Assembly: GCF_007859755.1 (NCBI RefSeq)
Contig: NZ_SJPF01000001.1
Coordinates: 784,734-848,733 of the forward strand
Origin: Blastopirellula retiformator
Lineage (GTDB): Bacteria > Planctomycetota > Planctomycetia > Pirellulales > Pirellulaceae
Direction: 5' to 3'
Length of the DNA stretch: 64,000 nucleotides
In this document: positions 2,064-62,153 of the stretch, piece by piece
How the letters are laid out: each line of letters opens with the position of its first letter
Numbering within the stretch: the stretch's first letter is position 1
The notes under the pieces: model-generated
Told to the model about the DNA's origin: nothing
Database searches by the model: none
Seen by the model: the letters and a program-made list of their open reading frames with translations, nothing else
Made by a program: the position numbers and the translations under genes

Positions 2064-2620
2064 TAAAAATGGTTGACAAAGCGCACGGAATTTTGATCGA
2101 TTACCGCAAGCAAACCACTATCTGCGGATCCGTGACGATGGAACCGCAGATGAGCGCAGATAGGATGATAGAGAGGGGCGATTGCCCGTGCGAGGATGGA
2201 GCACTGGTCGGCGAAAAAAATCGATCTCGAGTCCACTTTCCATTCGGAAGCGAACTAGTCACGCGTTTCCGGTCGATGGCTCGCGACGCGAAAAAACTGC
2301 GCCGCAGTCCAGTCCCTTCCGGCATGAAAAAATGAACGCAACTGGTCCAGTCCACCACGATCGTAGCCCGAGGCGCGAGTCGAGGGAAAGCGGCCGCTCA
2401 TCGACCAGCCGCATGAAGAAAAAAACGAACGTAGGCAGTCCAGTCCGCGTAGGGCAGGCCGTGCCTTCCGAAGACAAACGCCCCGATGTCACGAACACGA
2501 AGAACCGTCAGAAAAAAGAAAACAGTCCAGTCCACTAGGAATCAAAAAAACGCGCGCCAGTGGTCCAGTTTTCCTGGCGCAAAAAAACGCGCATCGGCGG
2601 TCCAGTCCTGCCGGTGCGCT
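2064..2620. repeat. A-tract/GGTCCAGTCC hairpin array 1 (seven units with leader)
   Basis: Leader: TTGACAAAGCGCACGGAAT at 2073, continuing to GATCGATT at 2102. Units: a run of 6-7 A (starts 2214, 2291, 2327, 2419, 2512, 2544, 2581), then 6-12 variable bases, then (A/G)GTCCAGTCC (starts 2306, 2344, 2437, 2524, 2599; shortened at 2230 and 2562). In the last two units the motif is the loop of a clear hairpin: 2554-2560 with 2574-2580, and 2589-2598 with 2610-2619. On the minus strand each such unit reads as stem, loop GGACTGGACC, stem, then T6-7, like an intrinsic terminator. The motif falls in different reading frames, so it is not protein coding. A second array with the same leader lies at 61221-61679. 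Function unknown. Confidence 0.75.
2363..2395 (+). repeat. Left arm of a 33-bp inverted repeat inside array 1
   Basis: GTAGCCCGAGGCGCGAG through GCGGCC. It pairs with 2624-2657 on the other strand at about 30 of 33 positions with one inserted A. The pair brackets units four to seven of array 1. The same core GTAGCCCGAGGCGCGAG also follows the sulfatase gene at 487-504, so this is a dispersed sequence. Confidence 0.7.
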
Positions 2621-4469: not shown

Positions 4470-4835
4470 GGGGGCGAATTGGAATCGACCGGATAGTCTG
4501 AAGTGTAAGTGGCGTGTCGAGGTTGGTCAGTGGGCCTCGTTAAAAGCTGACTACAACTATAATTGCCGAGAATAACACTCTCGCTCTTGCTGCCTAGTTT
4601 ACTAGGTTAGCTTGCCGGTTGAAGGTCTTTGTCGGAGAGATCTGAAAGCCGGTCGCCAATTCCGACTCGTCTTCAGTCACGCAAAGCACGCTGAGGACTA
4701 AATAAAGTTCTTTGCTAGTTGAGGAAGTATCCCGTCGATTGGAGCCTTCCTCAGCGAAATTCAAATAGTCGACTACACACGTAGAAGCTTGCATGGAAAT
4801 GTCGCGGGACGCGGGTTCAAATCCCGCCGCCTCCA
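4470..4835 (+). ncRNA. ssrA: tmRNA (transfer-messenger RNA)
   Basis: The 5' end GGGGGCG (4470-4476) pairs with CGCCTCC (4828-4834), forming the seven-pair acceptor stem of the tRNA-like domain with one G-U pair; the discriminator A is 4835 and CCA is not encoded. The T-arm GGGTTCAAATCCC is at 4813-4825. The tag reading frame GCC GAG AAT AAC ACT CTC GCT CTT GCT GCC TAG at 4565-4597 encodes AENNTLALAA, a standard degradation tag ending in LALAA. At 366 bases it is a normal one-piece tmRNA, which rescues stalled ribosomes with SmpB. Its 3' end is a common integration site and is followed by a mobile-element region. Confidence 0.95.
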
Positions 4836-4841
4836 TCAACA

Positions 4842-5288: not shown

Positions 5289-5570
5289 ATGAGTAAGAAG
5301 CGACGTCGGCATTCGGCCGAACAGATCATCAAGAAGTTGCGGGACGCGGACGCCATGTTGGCGGCTGGCAAGAGCGTTGGCGAAGTGCTTCAGGCGTTGG
5401 AAGTGAGCGAGGCGACGCTCAGCCGTTGGCGAACGCAGTACGGCGGCATGAAGAGCGAAGAGGCGAAGCGGCTGAAATCGCTCGAAGAAGAGAACAACCG
5501 GCTGAAACGGATCATCGCCGATCAAGCGCTCGACATCTCGATGCTGAAGGAGATCGCCAAGGGAAACTGA
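5289..5570 (+). CDS. IS3-family transposase OrfA
   Basis: A 93-residue protein with an N-terminal helix-turn-helix (SAEQIIKKLRDADAMLAAGKSVGEVLQAL, SEATLSRWR) and a leucine-zipper-like tail (LKSLEEENNRLKRIIADQALDISML) that allows oligomerisation in this family. It binds the IS ends and regulates transposition. The stop TGA is immediately preceded by GGGAAAC (5561-5567), a canonical minus-one slippery heptamer in the correct phase (G GGA AAC). Confidence 0.9.
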   Translation: MSKKRRRHSAEQIIKKLRDADAMLAAGKSVGEVLQALEVSEATLSRWRTQYGGMKSEEAKRLKSLEEENNRLKRIIADQALDISMLKEIAKGN

Positions 5571-6487
5571 CCACCCCTCAGTCGCGCCGCGAGGCGGTCA
5601 AGCAGCTTCAGGAGAACTATTCGGTCTCCGAGCGGCGGGCCTGTCGCGTGCTCGATCTGCCTCGATCGAGCCAGCGATTTGAGGGGAAGCCGAGGGACGA
5701 AGACGCCCGCCTGACCAAGCGAATTTTGGAGCTGGTGCGCGAGCGTCCGCGTTGGGGCTATCGCCAGATCTGTCAGCTGTTGCGACGCGAGGGGGAAACC
5801 TTGAACATGAAAAAGATGCACCGACTCTGGAAAGCGGCCGGGCTGAAAGTTCCGCAAAAACGCCGGAAAAAGCGGGCGACCGGCGTTTCAACGAACGCTT
5901 GCCACGTGCAGCCGGCCAGCTTCATGCATGACGTTTGGACGTGGGATTTCATTCAGTCGTCGACGATCGACGGGCGAACGATCCGCTTTTTGAACATCGT
6001 CGACGAGTACACGCGGCAGTGCCTGACGATCAAAGTGGGCCGCAGCATCACAAGCGAAGATGCGATCGATACGCTGGCCGAACTCTTCTCGATGCATGGC
6101 GTGCCGAAGCGAATTCGCTGCGACAACGGCCCAGAGTTCATCTCGTGCGCGATCAAGACGTGGCTGGTGCTGATCGGCGTCGAGGTGCTGTACATCGAGC
6201 CAGGCTCGCCGTGGCAAAACGGCTTTTGCGAAAGCTTCAATAGTCGCCTACGTGATGAGTACCTGCACCAGACCGACCTGCGGAACGAGGAGGACGCGAG
6301 GATCAAAGCTCGGGCCTGGCGAGAAGACTTCAACGAGCGACGCCCGCACAGCAGCTTGGGCTACCTGACCCCGTCCGAGTTCGCGCGTCGCTGTGCCGCT
6401 TCCACTCCAGTCGCTGCGCTCCTTCCGCTGCAGCGGCACAGCGACCCCACCCAATCGTTACCTGTTTCCCAAACCGATCTTTCATAA
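5567..6487 (+). CDS. IS3-family transposase OrfB (DDE integrase), made by minus-one frameshift
   Basis: After slippage at 5561-5567 translation continues LTTPQSRREAV... for 306 residues. The integrase core has the expected acidic residues: D in VWTWDFI, D in RCDNGPEF and E in GFCESFNSRLRDEY, followed by NERRPHSSLGYLTPSEFA. An upstream HTH_21 segment is present (ERPRWGYRQICQLLRREG). The stop TAA lies within the right terminal repeat. There is no good independent start, supporting the OrfAB fusion as the transposase. Confidence 0.9.
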   Translation: MTTPQSRREAVKQLQENYSVSERRACRVLDLPRSSQRFEGKPRDEDARLTKRILELVRERPRWGYRQICQLLRREGETLNMKKMHRLWKAAGLKVPQKRRKKRATGVSTNACHVQPASFMHDVWTWDFIQSSTIDGRTIRFLNIVDEYTRQCLTIKVGRSITSEDAIDTLAELFSMHGVPKRIRCDNGPEFISCAIKTWLVLIGVEVLYIEPGSPWQNGFCESFNSRLRDEYLHQTDLRNEEDARIKARAWREDFNERRPHSSLGYLTPSEFARRCAASTPVAALLPLQRHSDPTQSLPVSQTDLS

Positions 6488-6489
6488 GG

Positions 6490-6947
6490 CTTGGTACAGA
6501 AAAAGGGGGCAGGCCACTTCCTTCGTTTCCGAATGAACTAGCGGAACGAATCTTGGAAGAGACCGAAGTCCTGCGAATGATCGCCCTGGAAAACAACCCA
6601 CGCAACAAAGCCATCCTTCTCACCTTCTATGCTGGTGGCTTTCGGGTGAGTGAAGTAGCGGCTTTGAAATGGAAGCACCTGCAAAGCCGTGATGAAGCTG
6701 GTCAAATCACAGTCTTTGCCAAGGGCGGGAAGACCAATTCGGTTTTGATGCCTGCGGCGGTCTGGGTTCAACTTGTGGTGTTGCGTGGTGATGACTCAGG
6801 CGAATCACCCGTTTTCCGTAGCCGGAAGAAAGGTCACCTATCCGAGTGCCAGATTTGGCGGATCGTGCGTAAAGCTGCGGAGCGTGCTGGGATTGAAAAA
6901 GCCGTATCGTGCCACTGGCTACGACATGCCCATGCTTCACACTCGCT
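6490..6947 (+). pseudogene. Tyrosine recombinase (phage-type integrase) catalytic-domain fragment
   Basis: In-frame from the right edge of the first IS: GRPLPSFPNELAERILEETEV, then the catalytic core with GGFRVSEVAALKW (Arg I), FAKGGKT (Lys) and CHWLRHAHASH (His-x-x-Arg). The sequence is cut at 6948 by the second IS, before the second His/Trp and the nucleophilic Tyr, and its N-terminal DNA-binding domain is missing to the left of 6488. It is therefore inactive. It could be the integrase of an element that entered at ssrA. Confidence 0.85.
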
Positions 6948-7037
6948 TGAAGTGGACCCCAGTTTTCGGACCACGGGTTAAGGTGGATTTCTTCGACTCT
7001 CCAGAGAGGATATCGTGGCGTCATCAGGAGAATTCAG

Positions 7038-7328
7038 ATGGCGCGAAAGCGGCGGCGGTTTGATGCGGCGTTTAAGGCCAAGGTGGCTCTCGAAGCGGTT
7101 CGCGGGCTGAAGACGATCAACGAGATAGCTTTGCAATTTAAGGTCCACCCGAACCAGGTCACGCTCTGGAAGAAGCAGCTGCTGAATGGGGCCGAGCAGG
7201 CCTTTGAAGGGGGCAGCGCGAAGCCTGCCAAGAGCGATGAGCCCGATCCGGCCGAGTTGTATGAGCAGATCGGACGACTGAAGGTCGAGCTGGAGTGGCT
7301 CAAAAAAAAAGTTGCCGAGAACTCGTGA
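7038..7328 (+). CDS. IS3-family transposase OrfA (IS911/IS2-like)
   Basis: A 96-residue HTH_Tnp_1 protein: FDAAFKAKVALEAVRGLKTINEIALQFKVHPNQVTLWKKQLL, followed by a coiled-coil-like tail IGRLKVELEWLKKKVAE. An A9 run (7302-7310) lies just before the stop. The orfB frame is plus one relative to this one, so the usual minus-one shift would not join them; loss of one A by polymerase slippage would. Confidence 0.9.
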   Translation: MARKRRRFDAAFKAKVALEAVRGLKTINEIALQFKVHPNQVTLWKKQLLNGAEQAFEGGSAKPAKSDEPDPAELYEQIGRLKVELEWLKKKVAENS

Positions 7329-8172
7329 CGAGGCGCTGCGATGGATCGACCATGGTCACCCGAAACTCAGCGTTCGCAGGCAGTGTCAACTGCTGGGCGT
7401 TCAACGCTCGCAGTTGTACTACGAACCGGTTCCCGAGACGGCGGAAAACCTCGACTTGATGCAAAGGATCGACAAGCAGTACCTCCAGACGCCTTTCTGG
7501 GGCAGCCGCAACATGACCACCTTTTTGCATCAGCAAGGCTTCGCCGTCAATCGGAAGCGAACCCAGCGTTTGATGCGAATTATGGGGCTCAAAGGGCTCG
7601 CGCCGGGACCTTCCACAAGTCGACCAGCGCCGCATCATCCAATTTATCCGTACCTGCTGAGAGACGTGGTGATCAACCGCCCGAATCAGGTTTGGTCGAG
7701 CGACGTCACGTACATTCCGATGCGGCATGGATATCTGTATCTGGTCGCGGTGATGGATTGGTTCAGCCGTTACGTTTTGTCGTGGCGATTGTCGAACAGC
7801 ATGGACGTCGAGTTCTGCGTAGCCGCCTTGGACGAGGCGTTGGATCAAGGAACGCCGGAGATTTTCAACACGGATCAAGGAGCTCAATTCACCAGTCGCC
7901 AGTATACGGATCGATTGAAGTCCAGCGCGATCGAGATCAGCATGGACGGTCGCGGCCGGGCGTTGGACAACGTTTTCATCGAAAGGTTATGGAGAAGCGT
8001 GAAATACGAAGACATCTACCTCAAGCATTACGAGTCAGGCGCCGATTGTCAGAAAGGACTGACTCGGTATTTCAAATTCTATAGCCACGAACGTCCTCAT
8101 CAGTCGCTGGGCAATCGAACCCCATGGGCGGTCCACACCAGCCAGCGACGGGGAGCCAAGGTACCCACCTAA
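7312..8172 (+). CDS. IS3-family transposase OrfB (DDE integrase)
   Basis: A 286-residue protein starting at TTG 7312 and overlapping orfA by 17 bases. It has an HTH_21 segment (PFWGSRNMTTFLHQQGFAVNRKRTQRLMR) and the rve integrase core: D in VWSSDVTYIPM, D in IFNTDQGAQFTS and E in VFIERLWRSVKYE, then FYSHERPHQSLGNRTP. All catalytic residues are intact. Translation could start independently by coupling to orfA or follow slippage in the A9 run. Confidence 0.9.
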   Translation: MPRTRDEALRWIDHGHPKLSVRRQCQLLGVQRSQLYYEPVPETAENLDLMQRIDKQYLQTPFWGSRNMTTFLHQQGFAVNRKRTQRLMRIMGLKGLAPGPSTSRPAPHHPIYPYLLRDVVINRPNQVWSSDVTYIPMRHGYLYLVAVMDWFSRYVLSWRLSNSMDVEFCVAALDEALDQGTPEIFNTDQGAQFTSRQYTDRLKSSAIEISMDGRGRALDNVFIERLWRSVKYEDIYLKHYESGADCQKGLTRYFKFYSHERPHQSLGNRTPWAVHTSQRRGAKVPT

Positions 8173-13799: not shown

Positions 13800-16700
13800 T
13801 TAGTGGAGGTACAGGAATTCGTTCGAGTTGAAGAGGGCCTGGCAGAAGTCGGTCACCGCGCTGAGCATCTTGTTGTCGGCGTCAGAGCTGTTCTCCTTGG
13901 CCGCCGTTCGCAGCCAGGCGGTATGCGGCGCCGGATGTTCGCCATCGGTCCCGTTAAAGGTCCAGTCCAACAGACGTTCGCTGTCGGCTGATTGGTCGCC
14001 GATCAGCAATCGCTGTTGGGGCAGGGCGCCTTGGCTGATCGTCAGGCGGGCCAGTTGCCCGTCCCACAAATGACCGGCCGCGTCGCGACCGCCGGCGATG
14101 ATCTTCAGCGCCGGGTTTCGGATCTTATTGACGACCGACGTTTCGACGGTCGAGGTTTCCAGCTTCGCGTTCGGATCGGAAAGATCCTTCATATAGAAGG
14201 TCACCGTGCCGGCGGTCGGATTCTCTTTCGACGTAGTCGCCGAGATCGCGGCCGCCAGGTAAACCGGTTTGCCAAGCGGAAACGTCAATCCCGAAGCGAC
14301 CACTTCATACGCAGGTTCATCCTGGAAGGTGCGTCCCACCAACTGCACGATGAAGTTCTGCGGATGGTAGGCCGACTTTTTGCTGGTCACGCCAATGTTC
14401 CAGCCATTCGACTTTGTTCCGCTGTTCCAGCGAGACAGCAGCGTGTTGACGCTGGCGTCCTCGTAGATCCGATCGAGGTTGACGACCGCTTCGACGGTAA
14501 ATTGATCACCGAAGTCGTCGGCCTGTTGAACATGCAGGCGTTCAAAGCGGCTGCCGGGCTGAATCCAGAGCGACTTTTCGCCAAGCTGCAAGTCTTTCGC
14601 CGAGCCGAAGTGCTGCGTGATCGGACGCAAGCCGGTTTCGTTCGGAAACTTGTCTTGAGGCTTGGGCGGGGTGGGCGACGATCGTTCGATGCGGGCAACC
14701 TGCTGACCAACAAAAGCGAGCGCCCCTTTCACCTCTTCGTCCGTGGCGGCCCGGCCGTAGGCGAGTTGGTACGCCTGGCGAACGTCATCCGCGGCGAGTT
14801 CCGACTTGCCGGCCAGCAGACGCTTGGCGAACGCCCGCGAGCGGTCCAGGCTCCATTTGCCATTGACCAACAACAACGATTGCAGCGGCGTGGTCGTCGA
14901 GATCCGTTCCGAGGCTGATTCAAAGCCGAGCGGCGCGTCAAAGCCGCGGAGCATCTCGTCGGGGCGGTTACGCATTTTCTTGACGAAGATGCTGCGATAA
15001 GGGGACGTGCCGGAAACGGAGCTGCCACCGTCACGCTGCTGCAGTTCTCCGGAGATCGCCAGCTGGGCGTCGCGGACTTCCTCGGCGTCAAGCCGTTGCG
15101 GCGGATAACGCCACAGCAGGCGGTTGGTTGGATCGAGGTTCGACTCTTTGACCGTCGGTTCGCGACGCGCCGTTTGGCGGTAGGTGGCGCTGTTCATGAT
15201 CAATTCATGCAGCGGTTTGATTTGCCAGCCTTCCTCCAGAAAGCGGCTGGTCAGCCAGTCGAGCAGTTCGGGATGGCTGGGGGGGTCGCCCAGGGTGCCA
15301 AAGTCATTCGGCGTTGGCACGATCCCTTTGCCCAGGTGACGTTGCCAAACGCGGTTGACGATTACCCGGGTCGAGAGTGGATTCTCTTCGCGAACCATCC
15401 AGTCGGCCAATGCGGTCCGGCGACCGGTGGTCGAAGAGGTCGGCGTGATCTTCGGCGTTTCGTCTCCCAGCAGGGCCAGGAACGACGGCTCCACTTCCTC
15501 GGTGGTCGTGCGGGTCAGTAGGTAAGTGGGCGCCGGCTCGGTACCGATGTCGGACGCCACAAAGGCGTTGGGAAGGGGCTGCGGTTTGAGCGAGTCGAAC
15601 TTCTTCAGCTCTTCCTGCAGCGCCTGGTATCGCTCTAGCTTTTCTGGTTTGCTCTTGAGCGACTTTTCGTGATCGAAACGCATCGCCGCACGATGGGCCT
15701 GACGGAAGACCAGGTACGACAGCTGTTTCTCATAGGTCGTCTTTTCCTCTTCCGGCTTGTTGTAGATCTCTTGGATGTCGTCGGGGAACTGACCAACAAT
15801 GTATTTCTGGTTACTGGCCATGGCGCCTTTGGTTAGCTCGGCCATTTCGTCCCGGATCGCTTTCGTCGCCTCTTCCCATTTCTGTTGCTGCTGGTTGAAG
15901 GCGTCGATTTCTTCTTTGGTGGCCAGTTGACGGTCCAGCGGCCAAGCGACCGAAGAGAGAAACGCCTGCAGACCGAAGTAGTCTCTCTGCAGAATCGGAT
16001 CAAATTTGTGATCGTGGCATTGGGCGCAGCCGATGCCGATGCCAAGGAACGCTTCGCCGGTAACGCGGGTCATCTCGTTAACGATGATGTCCCAGTGCAT
16101 CCGGGCGTTCCGCTGATTCCATTCGTAGATCCCCAGTCGCAGGTACGACGTGCCGATGAAGACGTTGGGATCGTCCGGGTTAATCTCGTCGCCGGCCAGT
16201 TGTTCTCGCACAAACTGGTTGTACGGCTTGTCGTCGTTGAACGATTGGATGACGTAGTCGCGATAGGCGCCGGCGCTGGGGCGGAAGGCGTCCTCGTTGT
16301 AGCCGTCGCTTTCGGCGAAGCGGACGACGTCGAGCCAGTGCTGAGCCCAGCGTTCGCCATAACGGGGACTGTCGAGCAGCTCGCGAATCAGACGTTGCCA
16401 CGCGTCGGGGCGATCGTCATTGACGAATGCGGCGACTTGCTCTGGCGTCGGCGGCAGCCCATGCAGGTCAAAATAAGCGCGACGGACCAGTTCGTGACGG
16501 TCCGCTTCCGGCGCCGGTTTCAGGCCGGTCTCTTGCAGTTTGCGAGCGACGAAGTGATCGATCTCGTTGCGGGCCCACCCTTCGCCAGCGGCAGGAACGG
16601 CCGGATCCTCGACCGGTTGGATCGCCCACCAGTTGCGGTCTTCATCGGTGAACGCTTTTTCCGAGGTGCGGATCAGGTTGGAGTCCGCTTCTGGCCACGG

Positions 16701-60543: not shown

Positions 60544-60933
60544 ATGAGAATCTTATCTGCAGGAATGCTCGGCGTGGCGGTTCTGGTCACGTTTGTCGGT
60601 TGTGGGGCGAACGGTACGGTCACCGGAATGGTCACCGCAGGCGGAGAGCCGGTCGAAGCCGGGAGCATCGTCTTCCAGCCGGTCGACGTCGGCGTGAAGC
60701 CTGCTTTGGGGCGGATCGGGAGCGATGGCGCGTATGATATGCGGACCGCCGGCGACGAAGGTCTCGTCCCAGGCGAATATCGCGTTTTGTACATGCCGCC
60801 CGATCAACGCGAAGACGAAAATGGACGTCCGCTGGGGAAGCCTTCGAAATGGCGGTCGTACCAGGGACCGGCCGAAACGGTGAACGTCGAGTCTTACGAA
60901 AACGAGATACCGGTCGAACTGCAGAAACGTTAA
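60544..60933 (+). CDS. Lipoprotein with carboxypeptidase-regulatory-like domain, DUF1559-associated
   Basis: A 129-residue lipoprotein: MRILSAGMLGVAVLVTFVGC has a lipobox ending in Cys. The mature part is a small beta-sandwich typical of these partners: GTVTGMVTAGGEPVEAGSIVFQPVD, then DGAYDMRTAGDEGLVPGEYRVLY. It pairs with the DUF1559 gene upstream. Its stop TAA (60931-60933) coincides with the outer edge of repeat copy A, suggesting that the repeat inserted right at, or supplied, the end of the gene. Confidence 0.85.
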   Translation: MRILSAGMLGVAVLVTFVGCGANGTVTGMVTAGGEPVEAGSIVFQPVDVGVKPALGRIGSDGAYDMRTAGDEGLVPGEYRVLYMPPDQREDENGRPLGKPSKWRSYQGPAETVNVESYENEIPVELQKR

Positions 60934-61086
60934 CAGCCTGTTGAAAAATGCCATCGTGTTATTTTTCAGCCTCGCCAGGCTCAGAGCATTGCTCTTCGCG
61001 GCTCGCAAAATAACGACTTACGTCGGTATTTTGGGATCGCATCCCTGCGATCTCGCAGTCCGTTGAGAAAATCAACGGACTGTTAA
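60931..61086 (+). repeat. 155-bp multi-hairpin dispersed repeat, copy A
   Basis: Starts TAACAGCCTGTTGAAAAATG and ends CAACGGACTGTTAA, so its outer ends are inverted (TTAACAG/CTGTTAA). Internal hairpins: TTGAAAAATGCC..., AAAATAACGACTTACGTCGG with TATTTT, GATCGCA/TGCGATC, and AGTCCGTTGA with TCAACGGACT. It is the most diverged of the plus-oriented copies. Confidence 0.85.
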
Positions 61087-61154
61087 TCGTCTTGCGGCGG
61101 GCGAACGCCGCGACGATCGTGGGCCGGAACCGGGCGACGATCTCCGAGAAGAGG

Positions 61155-61188
61155 AGCGGCGGCAAGAATTCTTGCCGCCGCTTTTTTT
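61155..61188 (+). terminator. Very strong intrinsic terminator
   Basis: AGCGGCGGCAAGAA (61155-61168) and TTCTTGCCGCCGCT (61169-61182) form a perfect 14-bp palindrome followed by T7. It stands between repeat copy A and array 2; it would end transcription from the DUF1559/lipoprotein genes. Confidence 0.92.
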
Positions 61189-61220
61189 CGTTGTTGCTTC
61201 TTGGGCCTTTGGCGTTGCGA

Positions 61221-61679
61221 GAAAAACGATTGACAAAGCGCACGGAATAATGATCGATTGCGGGTTCGGACTCAGCTTTGACCGGCGGCTTCGTCCGATC
61301 GCACGCCGGGCAGAGCCGACCGCAAAAAAAAATTGCGTTCGGAGTCCACTTTCGGTTCGGATGCGAACGGATGAAGTGGAAGGGGCGTCCGGAGAAAAAA
61401 AAGACGCGGTCCAGTCCACCACAGCGCGAAAAAACGGAACGGTCCAGTCCTGCCGGGTTTGCAATTCGCCTTGTTTGCCTAAGGCGCCAGATCGCGGCCC
61501 CGAAAAAAATTTGTCGGAGTCCAGTCCACCACGTGGATGGCAAAAAAGCGAAATCGTCCGGTCCAGTCGGTTTCGCAAACGGCCTAAATTGCCAGAAGGG
61601 GATGGCGCGTTGGTGAAAAAAACGTCGCGGTCCGGTCCACTGGTCCGGCGGAGCCTGGACGTCAGGCGGACCTTGGCTG
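61221..61679. repeat. A-tract/GGTCCAGTCC hairpin array 2 (six units with leader)
   Basis: Leader TTGACAAAGCGCACGGAAT at 61230, matching array 1 at 28 of 30 positions. A-runs of 6-9 start at 61324, 61395, 61429, 61503, 61542 and 61616; motifs (A/G)GTCCAGTCC or close variants start at 61343, 61408, 61441, 61518, 61560 and 61629. A-run spacing is 71, 34, 74, 39 and 74 bases, close to multiples of 36. The first unit is conserved beyond the motif: 61342-61368 matches 2229-2255 at 24 of 27 positions. The fifth unit has a clear stem (61548-61555 with 61569-61576) holding the motif in its loop. It lies between repeat copies A and B. Function unknown. Confidence 0.75.
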
Positions 61680-61680
61680 G

Positions 61681-61836
61681 TTAACAGCCTGTTGAAAAAT
61701 GCCATCGTGGCATTTTTCAACCTCGGCAGGCTCAGAGCATAGCTCTTCGCGGCTCGCAAAATAACGACTTACGTTGCTATTTTGGGATCGCATTCATGCG
61801 ATCACGCAGTCCGTCGAGAAAATCAACGGACTGCTA
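61681..61836 (+). repeat. 155-bp multi-hairpin dispersed repeat, copy B
   Basis: Starts TTAACAGCCTGTTGAAAAAT directly after array 2 and ends with CAACGGACTGCTAG. It holds the same series of hairpins as copy A, with TTGAAAAATGCCA/TGGCATTTTTCAA perfect here. Same orientation as A and C. Confidence 0.88.
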
Positions 61837-61947
61837 GGGAGTTTGACGCTGACGGAGAGTTACGTTCCGGCGGCTGCCGCCTATCCCGTTATCTTGGGCA
61901 AGACCGTCATAATCGCGCAGCACGCAACCTGTAGACGCGTGCTAGAG
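61837..61947. other. Spacer between repeat copies B and C
   Basis: About 110 bases without a gene or recognised signal. Confidence 0.4.
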
Positions 61948-62104
61948 TTAACAGCCTGTTGAAAAATGCCCTCGTGGCATTTTCCAACCTCGGCAGGCGC
62001 AGAGCGTAGCTCTTCGCGGCTCGCAAAATAACGACTTACGTCGCTATTTTGGGATCGCATCCCTGCGATCACGCAGTCCGTCGAGAAAATCAACGGACTG
62101 TTAA
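61948..62104 (+). repeat. 155-bp multi-hairpin dispersed repeat, copy C
   Basis: Starts TTAACAGCCTGTTGAAAAAT and ends CAACGGACTGTTAA; 157 bases, with both outer ends intact. It lies 49 bases upstream of the potassium transporter start, so it may influence expression of that gene. Confidence 0.88.
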
Positions 62105-62153
62105 GGACTTCATTGCGAGGCGCAATTCGTAAAACCAACGGAAACACAGGCCC

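Follow-up and report, generated by a model that had tools for sequence, protein, structure and literature searches.

The window analysed here, a stretch of 64,000 nucleotides from a 6.2-Mb Blastopirellula genome (G000), holds two non-coding arrays, array 1 near its beginning and array 2 at 61230-61638, with the same leader and the same order of elements in both. Array 1 consists of the leader and seven A-tract units readable in 2214-2608, ends at about 2619 and is convergent with a gene at 2665 (Table 1). The core motif GTCCAGTCC was found nine times in the window against 0.44 expected (maximum among 100 shuffles, 3), with five copies in array 1, three in array 2 and one elsewhere, at 13960. 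The array of seven A-tract units described in a first-pass annotation is real and far above shuffles, but its leader at 2073 had been overlooked and the core is exact in five of the units only. Rfam, searched at gathering threshold across the window, returned tmRNA as the sole match and none for the arrays, and no description was found in the titles and abstract openings of the literature on Blastopirellula or planctomycete non-coding RNA and repeats, so the earlier view that the layout belongs to no named family still holds. The tmRNA is full-length (window 4470-4838) and is followed by open reading frames that resemble, by eye, IS3-type transposases (5289-8172). Near array 2, a 164-nt repeat (60929-62110) is present in three copies, one before the array and two after it, with 89-100% identity to the reference copy.

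Table 1. Positions of the leaders, units and arrays in the window.
Feature	Position	Strand	Description
Leader of array 1	2073-2102	+	TTGACAAAGCGCACGGA 2073-2089, spacer, GATCGATT 2095-2102; promoter-like; genus-wide motif
Stretch from leader to first A-tract, array 1	2103-2213	+	Presumed untranslated; boxA not recognised
Unit 1, array 1 (degenerate)	2214-2237	+	A7 ... GAGTCCACT (core at 2229); first-unit type also found at other loci
Unit 2, array 1	2291-2315	+	A6 + GTCCAGTCC (core at 2307)
Unit 3, array 1	2327-2353	+	A6 + GTCCAGTCC (core at 2345)
Unit 4, array 1	2419-2446	+	A7 + GTCCAGTCC (core at 2438)
Unit 5, array 1	2512-2533	+	A6 + GTCCAGTCC (core at 2525)
Unit 6, array 1 (degenerate)	2544-2571	+	A7 + GTCCAGTTT (core at 2563); own flank allows hairpin
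Unit 7, array 1	2581-2619	+	A7 + GTCCAGTCC (core at 2600); 10-bp stem, top stem score among 458 units tested
Leader of array 2	61230-61259	+	TTGACAAAGCGCACGGA 61230-61246, GATCGATT 61252-61259
Array 2	61324-61638	+	Degenerate first unit, then cores at 61409, 61442, 61519, 61556 and 61630; boxA not recognised

The leader (leader 1) has the consensus TTGACAAAGCGCACGGA-N5-GGTCGATT, and in array 1 it places TTGACA and ATCGAT 17 nt apart, in the manner of -35 and -10 boxes. Its second block is unlike the usual housekeeping -10; the rRNA promoters of G000 appear, as read by eye, to use TTGACG with TAGGAT or TACTCT, and a sigma-28-like leader was likewise considered by eye. The distribution was evaluated in four genomes of the genus, G000 and G001-G003, with Blastopirellula marina among them; a contig of B. 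marina DSM 3645 carries the leader. At ≤3 mismatches the leader core gave 37 matches in G000 compared with one for the reversed pattern, and 63, 43 and 61 matches in G001, G002 and G003, respectively. The two-block leader pattern was found 33, 39, 58 and 59 times in the four genomes; among 292 other genomes of the order, evenly drawn, two gave one match each. Similarly, the unit pattern gave 353-621 overlapping matches in the genus genomes and ≤8 in any of 115 other genomes of the family. The further copies in related genomes on which the first-pass annotation had made its array depend are therefore present in each of the four, and leader and units form a family confined to the genus, of which array 1 is one member among dozens of G000 loci that look like long, promoter-led GUCC-repeat RNAs.

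Altogether, 198 distinct leader loci were fetched (57 of 63 in G001) and 191 were kept after seven with low profile scores had been dropped. At least one unit lies within 900 nt downstream of the leader in 30/34 loci of G000, 33/54 of G001, 38/42 of G002 and 46/61 of G003; by the first unit pattern, 147 of the 191 are array loci and 44 have no unit. At least eight unit clusters of G000, among the matches listed, are without leader 1, so units and leader 1 are not obligatorily coupled; four of these clusters have another promoter-like element, TATAAA, at ≤3 mismatches, and two are placed on the 3' end of ATPase genes. A TATAAA-type leader, TTGCCAAATTG...GGTATAAA, precedes some G000 arrays (among L180, L181 and L183), a variant of it, TTGAC...AGTATAAA, is found before some G000 ATPase genes (among L352-L355 and L340-L347), and a third leader type, TTGCAAAAC...CGTACACTAC, before other G000 loci. 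At two G001 loci (L090 and L091), tandem leaders recur every 236-251 nt inside a larger repeat, with no units between them, and at L006 an array of three units precedes a gene taken, by eye, for recA. In all four genomes, leaders without arrays are also found in front of a portal gene of phage type. In G000 this gene belongs to a prophage- or GTA-like cluster with portal, tail tube and tail proteins (L269, C2:750000-769900) and is preceded by two leaders in tandem; leaders recur at the portal locus of each of the four genomes.

The core shared by the units is a run of tandem NGTCC pentamers behind an A-tract, and a hairpin is not general. There are 820 instances of GTCC repeated at a 5-nt distance, the array strands carry 1555 copies of GTCC and 155 of GGAC, and the density of AAAAAA is 17.9 per kb in the arrays compared with 0.5 in their flanks. 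Many arrays of G001 and G003 consist of near-identical tandem units, most often of 38-40 nt and with two to four successive NGTCC, and in G000 neither unit text nor spacing is constant, whether inside one array or from one array to the next. Species differ in the central base of the motif, which is T in 1/137 copies in G000, 0/156 in G002, 34/253 in G001 and 92/274 in G003. When the spacings between units were taken modulo 3, the four genomes together gave counts of 139/172/154, which means that the reading frame is not kept; this bears out the earlier observation that the motif changes frame from unit to unit and that the array is non-coding, and a protein-coding tandem repeat was rejected on the same count. 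The stretches between leader and units fall into loose groups, and the idea that they share one conserved 5' structure was set aside. The core was also considered for pairing with 16S rRNA, and this was rejected, since its complement is absent from the 16S genes at ≤1 mismatch; a one-mismatch copy of the core motif itself is present there.

The units had further been proposed to fold with the motif in the loop, which is true of the last two units of array 1 and is no general rule. Among 458 distinct exact-core units of the four genomes, complementarity between arm and flank averaged 9.84, compared with 9.65 when flanks were swapped (50 swaps, sd 0.095, largest 9.83), and 15 strong stems (score ≥16) were counted against 13.3 in the swaps, so that the observed mean barely exceeds the control and the stem pairing on which the proposal partly hung is marginal at best. 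When 120 of the 239 units of G000 and G002 were folded singly and compared with shuffles, z values of -0.44 (se 0.10) and -0.11 (se 0.09) were obtained for the plus and minus strands, respectively; array 1 as a whole gave -1.96 and -1.97. A hairpin array as the rule was consequently dropped. The same minus-strand value speaks against the suggested tandem terminators, as stems before T-runs do not go beyond chance; intrinsic terminators, with a GC hairpin immediately ahead of a T-run on that strand, were not supported as a class, although individual units, for example unit 7 of array 1, do qualify.

The direction of the family is uniform. Under a stricter unit pattern, 143 of the 191 loci have units downstream on the leader strand and none has them on the opposite strand (481 units to 0), and units upstream were found in 1 of the 93 loci with at least 1000 nt of upstream sequence. 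A boxA-like element, TCTTTGRHAATT, occurs between leader and first unit in 30/147 array loci and never on the reverse strand; the expectation of 0.48 was derived from the flanks, which are largely coding, and a shuffle control agrees with it (28/147 array loci at ≤2 mismatches, 0/441 shuffles). The two rRNA leaders of G000 carry a matching GATCTTTGACAATTTGG. Such elements on the leader strand point to RNA, and both strand counts go against the minus-strand reading of the first-pass annotation; arrays 1 and 2 themselves lack a recognisable boxA. By heuristic gene calls, the downstream gene is directed toward the array in 88/142 loci and runs in the same direction in 54/142. Most arrays are therefore not 5' UTRs, and the idea that the array is the 5' UTR of the next gene was discarded.

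Counterparts with a matching flank were found for up to 38/54 G001 loci in G003 and for 18/34 G000 loci in G002, numbers that need one flank above 150 bits and include loci flanked by an ATPase or portal gene; array 1 matches a G002 locus (L162) on both sides. Identity was compared in two sets of orthologous array pairs (16 + 16). The first leader block was 91% and 98% identical and the second 95% and 95%, values biased upward because the pairs were found via the leader in both genomes. Identity was 28% and 25% at -60..-20, and 69% and 33% at +34..+74; the 69% over the 40 nt after the leader in G001/G003 means that conservation there is not confined to the leader. Orthologous arrays shared a median of 2.9% and 0.3% of their 14-mers. 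These comparisons suggest that the leader is kept, or repeatedly restored, and that the array text is replaced, with the pentamer core persisting. The leader pattern gave 0 exact matches in viral contigs, where one unit-like match (L274) is isolated, without a second core or a leader, and a phage-borne family was rejected on these results.

The units are linked to one gene family. Genes of the AAA_25 (Pfam) ATPases are expanded in the genus, with 11-20 matches per genome compared with 0-3 in 41 others, and occupy about 54 places (60 matches, some split), 30 of which were examined for tails. A-tract/GTCC units were found at the gene end in 29/30 with a loose pattern and in 25/30 with the exact GTCCNGTCC, the single gene without tail units adjoining a run of N; in relatives from other genera, the corresponding values were 0/13 and 1/13. 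Since paralogues share tails by descent, the link does not represent 30 independent events. Leaders without arrays precede AAA_25 genes in three of the four genomes; leader 1 was found upstream of most examined genes in G001 and G003, of one in G002 and, within 700 nt, of 0/16 in G000. The central base in G002 is G 3, A 1 and C 1 in the ATPase tails, compared with A 126 and G 30 in the arrays. One leader-preceded ATPase was modelled (mean pLDDT 83), and its best solved match was Thermus aquaticus DnaB (E 1.6e-11, TM 0.28 over the whole chain); NCBIfam and PADLOC gave no match for two members. Three relatives from other genera were scanned, and Prim-Pol and PriCT_1 domains were detected in two and a DnaB N-terminal domain in one. 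Blocks of ATPase gene plus units are duplicated at unrelated sites of G000; the blocks at L352 and L353 (G000:C3) are 98.8% identical over 1957 bp with unrelated flanks. Two of the CsrA-family matches of G000 (e.g. C4:229415 and C4:234608) lie less than 8 kb from the ATPase gene at C4:236120.

The family shares single features with sponge RNAs, type III antitoxin repeats and boxA-led CRISPR arrays, and lacks at least one tested defining feature of each. Sponge RNAs of the CsrB/RsmZ type, present in one to a few copies per genome, carry many short protein-binding motifs with GGA in loops, and CsrA prefers ANGGA. The arrays would resemble them as non-coding RNAs with many short protein-binding motifs, if our reading is right; they differ in having GUCC pentamers instead of GGA in loops, no general hairpins and 30-46 unit-bearing leader loci per genome. 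GGA and ANGGA occur at 16.5 and 3.64 per kb on the plus strand of the arrays (flanks 14.9 and 3.01), and at 36.2 and 2.41 per kb on the minus strand (flanks 13.1 and 2.90). A CsrB/RsmZ-type sponge was rejected, as neither dense GGA/ANGGA on the presumed transcribed strand nor general display in loops was found. Iteron origins combine direct repeats and A-rich tracts beside plasmid replication genes, and the units likewise adjoin a replication-type ATPase gene; unlike iterons, the arrays are promoter-led and many per chromosome, mostly with the gene absent. With the rRNA operon leaders of G000 some arrays share a boxA-like TCTTTGACAATT, and differ from them in promoter sequence and in having no rRNA-like product. 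Type III toxin-antitoxin systems, in the passages of PMC8860590 drawn on here, have a repeat array upstream of a toxin gene, with a terminator between, and a ToxN-like endoribonuclease. ToxIN, so outlined, and the present family both have RNA repeats in tandem that are tied to a single protein gene and preceded by a promoter, but the units here stand alone or at and after the 3' end of the gene, most arrays are heterogeneous, and the protein is an AAA_25 ATPase by Pfam with a DnaB-like fold instead of an endoribonuclease; a type III system was rejected on gene order and protein. The boxA-led CRISPR loci of PMC7862264, as far as the portion of that paper used here describes them, have a leader, an antitermination element and a long untranslated repeat array, and the same elements (the second at some loci, the third presumed untranslated) recur here. 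Most arrays lack the constant repeat of CRISPR, and spacer length is arbitrary; a CRISPR array was rejected because repeats and spacings are not near-constant in G000, although G001 and G003 include some arrays whose tandem units are near-constant.

Several explanations compete. The strongest rival, which we still hold to be somewhat unlikely, makes the arrays derivatives of selfish ATPase elements: a plasmid- or phage-derived block, made up of ATPase gene, promoter and 3' units, would be mobile or duplicating, with the units as iterons of an origin-like kind or as its end sequences, and loci that have an array alone would be non-autonomous derivatives without host function. The ATPase-plus-unit blocks at unrelated G000 sites, the DnaB match of the fold, the domains of mobile-element replication proteins in relatives and the leaders upstream of the portal gene are all consistent with it. 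On the other hand, many array loci occupy the same places across species, and their leaders are much better conserved than most of the sequence around them; the few boundaries inspected showed no recognisable element ends or target duplications. Fixed positions and conserved leaders make mere decay less likely but leave the likelihood of a selfish origin untouched.

The scatter of many sites over the chromosome and the enrichment of A-tracts would also suit sites acting as DNA, in which A-tract bends and GGACN repeats are bound by a nucleoid, partition or transcription protein. The confinement of units to the leader strand downstream of the leader, and boxA-like elements indicative of RNA, make this improbable. 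Neutral repeat expansion behind a functional promoter, with the leader alone of importance, would account for the almost complete replacement of array text between species and for the near-identical tandem units of B. marina, and is rendered very improbable by a pentamer core common to all four species although nearly all else changes. The least probable account, scarcely credible in our view, is that of the first-pass annotation, in which the minus strand would yield a CsrA/RsmA sponge that displays GGA in its hairpin loops, or the units would serve the gene at 2665 as tandem terminators. G000 does encode CsrA, as that annotation had wondered (13 CsrA-family matches), GGA is abundant on the minus strand, and array 1 and that gene are convergent; however, stems hardly exceed chance, minus-strand ANGGA is not enriched and the directional signals lie on the plus strand. 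Its broader suggestion, an RNA that would bind protein, still appears to be the best idea.

In the reading that we tentatively favour, and regard as possible, the plus strand of the arrays would be transcribed into untranslated RNAs, which would titrate a common factor, most likely the AAA_25 ATPase, or tether it. Array 1 would be a stand-alone untranslated RNA gene, transcribed rightward from the leader promoter at 2073. Its transcript would contain A-tracts and clustered NGUCC pentamers, to which, as single-stranded sites, one trans-acting factor common to such loci would bind. The likeliest candidate for this factor would be the genus's family of DnaB-like AAA_25 ATPases, the genes of which end in array-type units; units on the ATPase mRNA may mark or limit that mRNA, and array-only RNAs may act on the ATPase as sponge or tether. 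The confinement of leader and units to the genus and their directional arrangement count for this reading, as do the strand-specific boxA-like elements, the leaders conserved between orthologous loci with replaced array text, the recurrence of the pentamer, the predominance of convergent downstream genes, the units in the ATPase tails and the species-dependent central base. Counting against it are the restriction of boxA-like elements to 30/147 array loci, the shared descent of the ATPase tails, the upward bias in leader identity, the conservation beyond the leader in G001/G003, the unusual second leader block, the leaders without units, the G000 clusters without leader 1, the two window arrays without recognisable boxA, the G000 ATPase genes without leader 1 and the central-base mismatch in G002.

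A bolder proposal, which we consider unlikely, is a new kind of genus-wide RNA-protein system, in which dozens of promoter-led RNAs, some with antitermination elements, made of fast-changing A-tract/(NGUCC)n units, would bind, and check or deliver, replication-helicase-like ATPases that derive from mobile elements and whose mRNAs carry the same units. If this were true, bacteria would hold large promoter-led repeat-RNA families outside CRISPR, at fixed loci and tied to one protein family, and the text of such repeat RNAs would turn over within a genus while the loci stay. It would also provide an example, open to testing, of co-evolution between an RNA array and a replication-type ATPase, and RNA-level control of mobile elements could then be sought in a new place.
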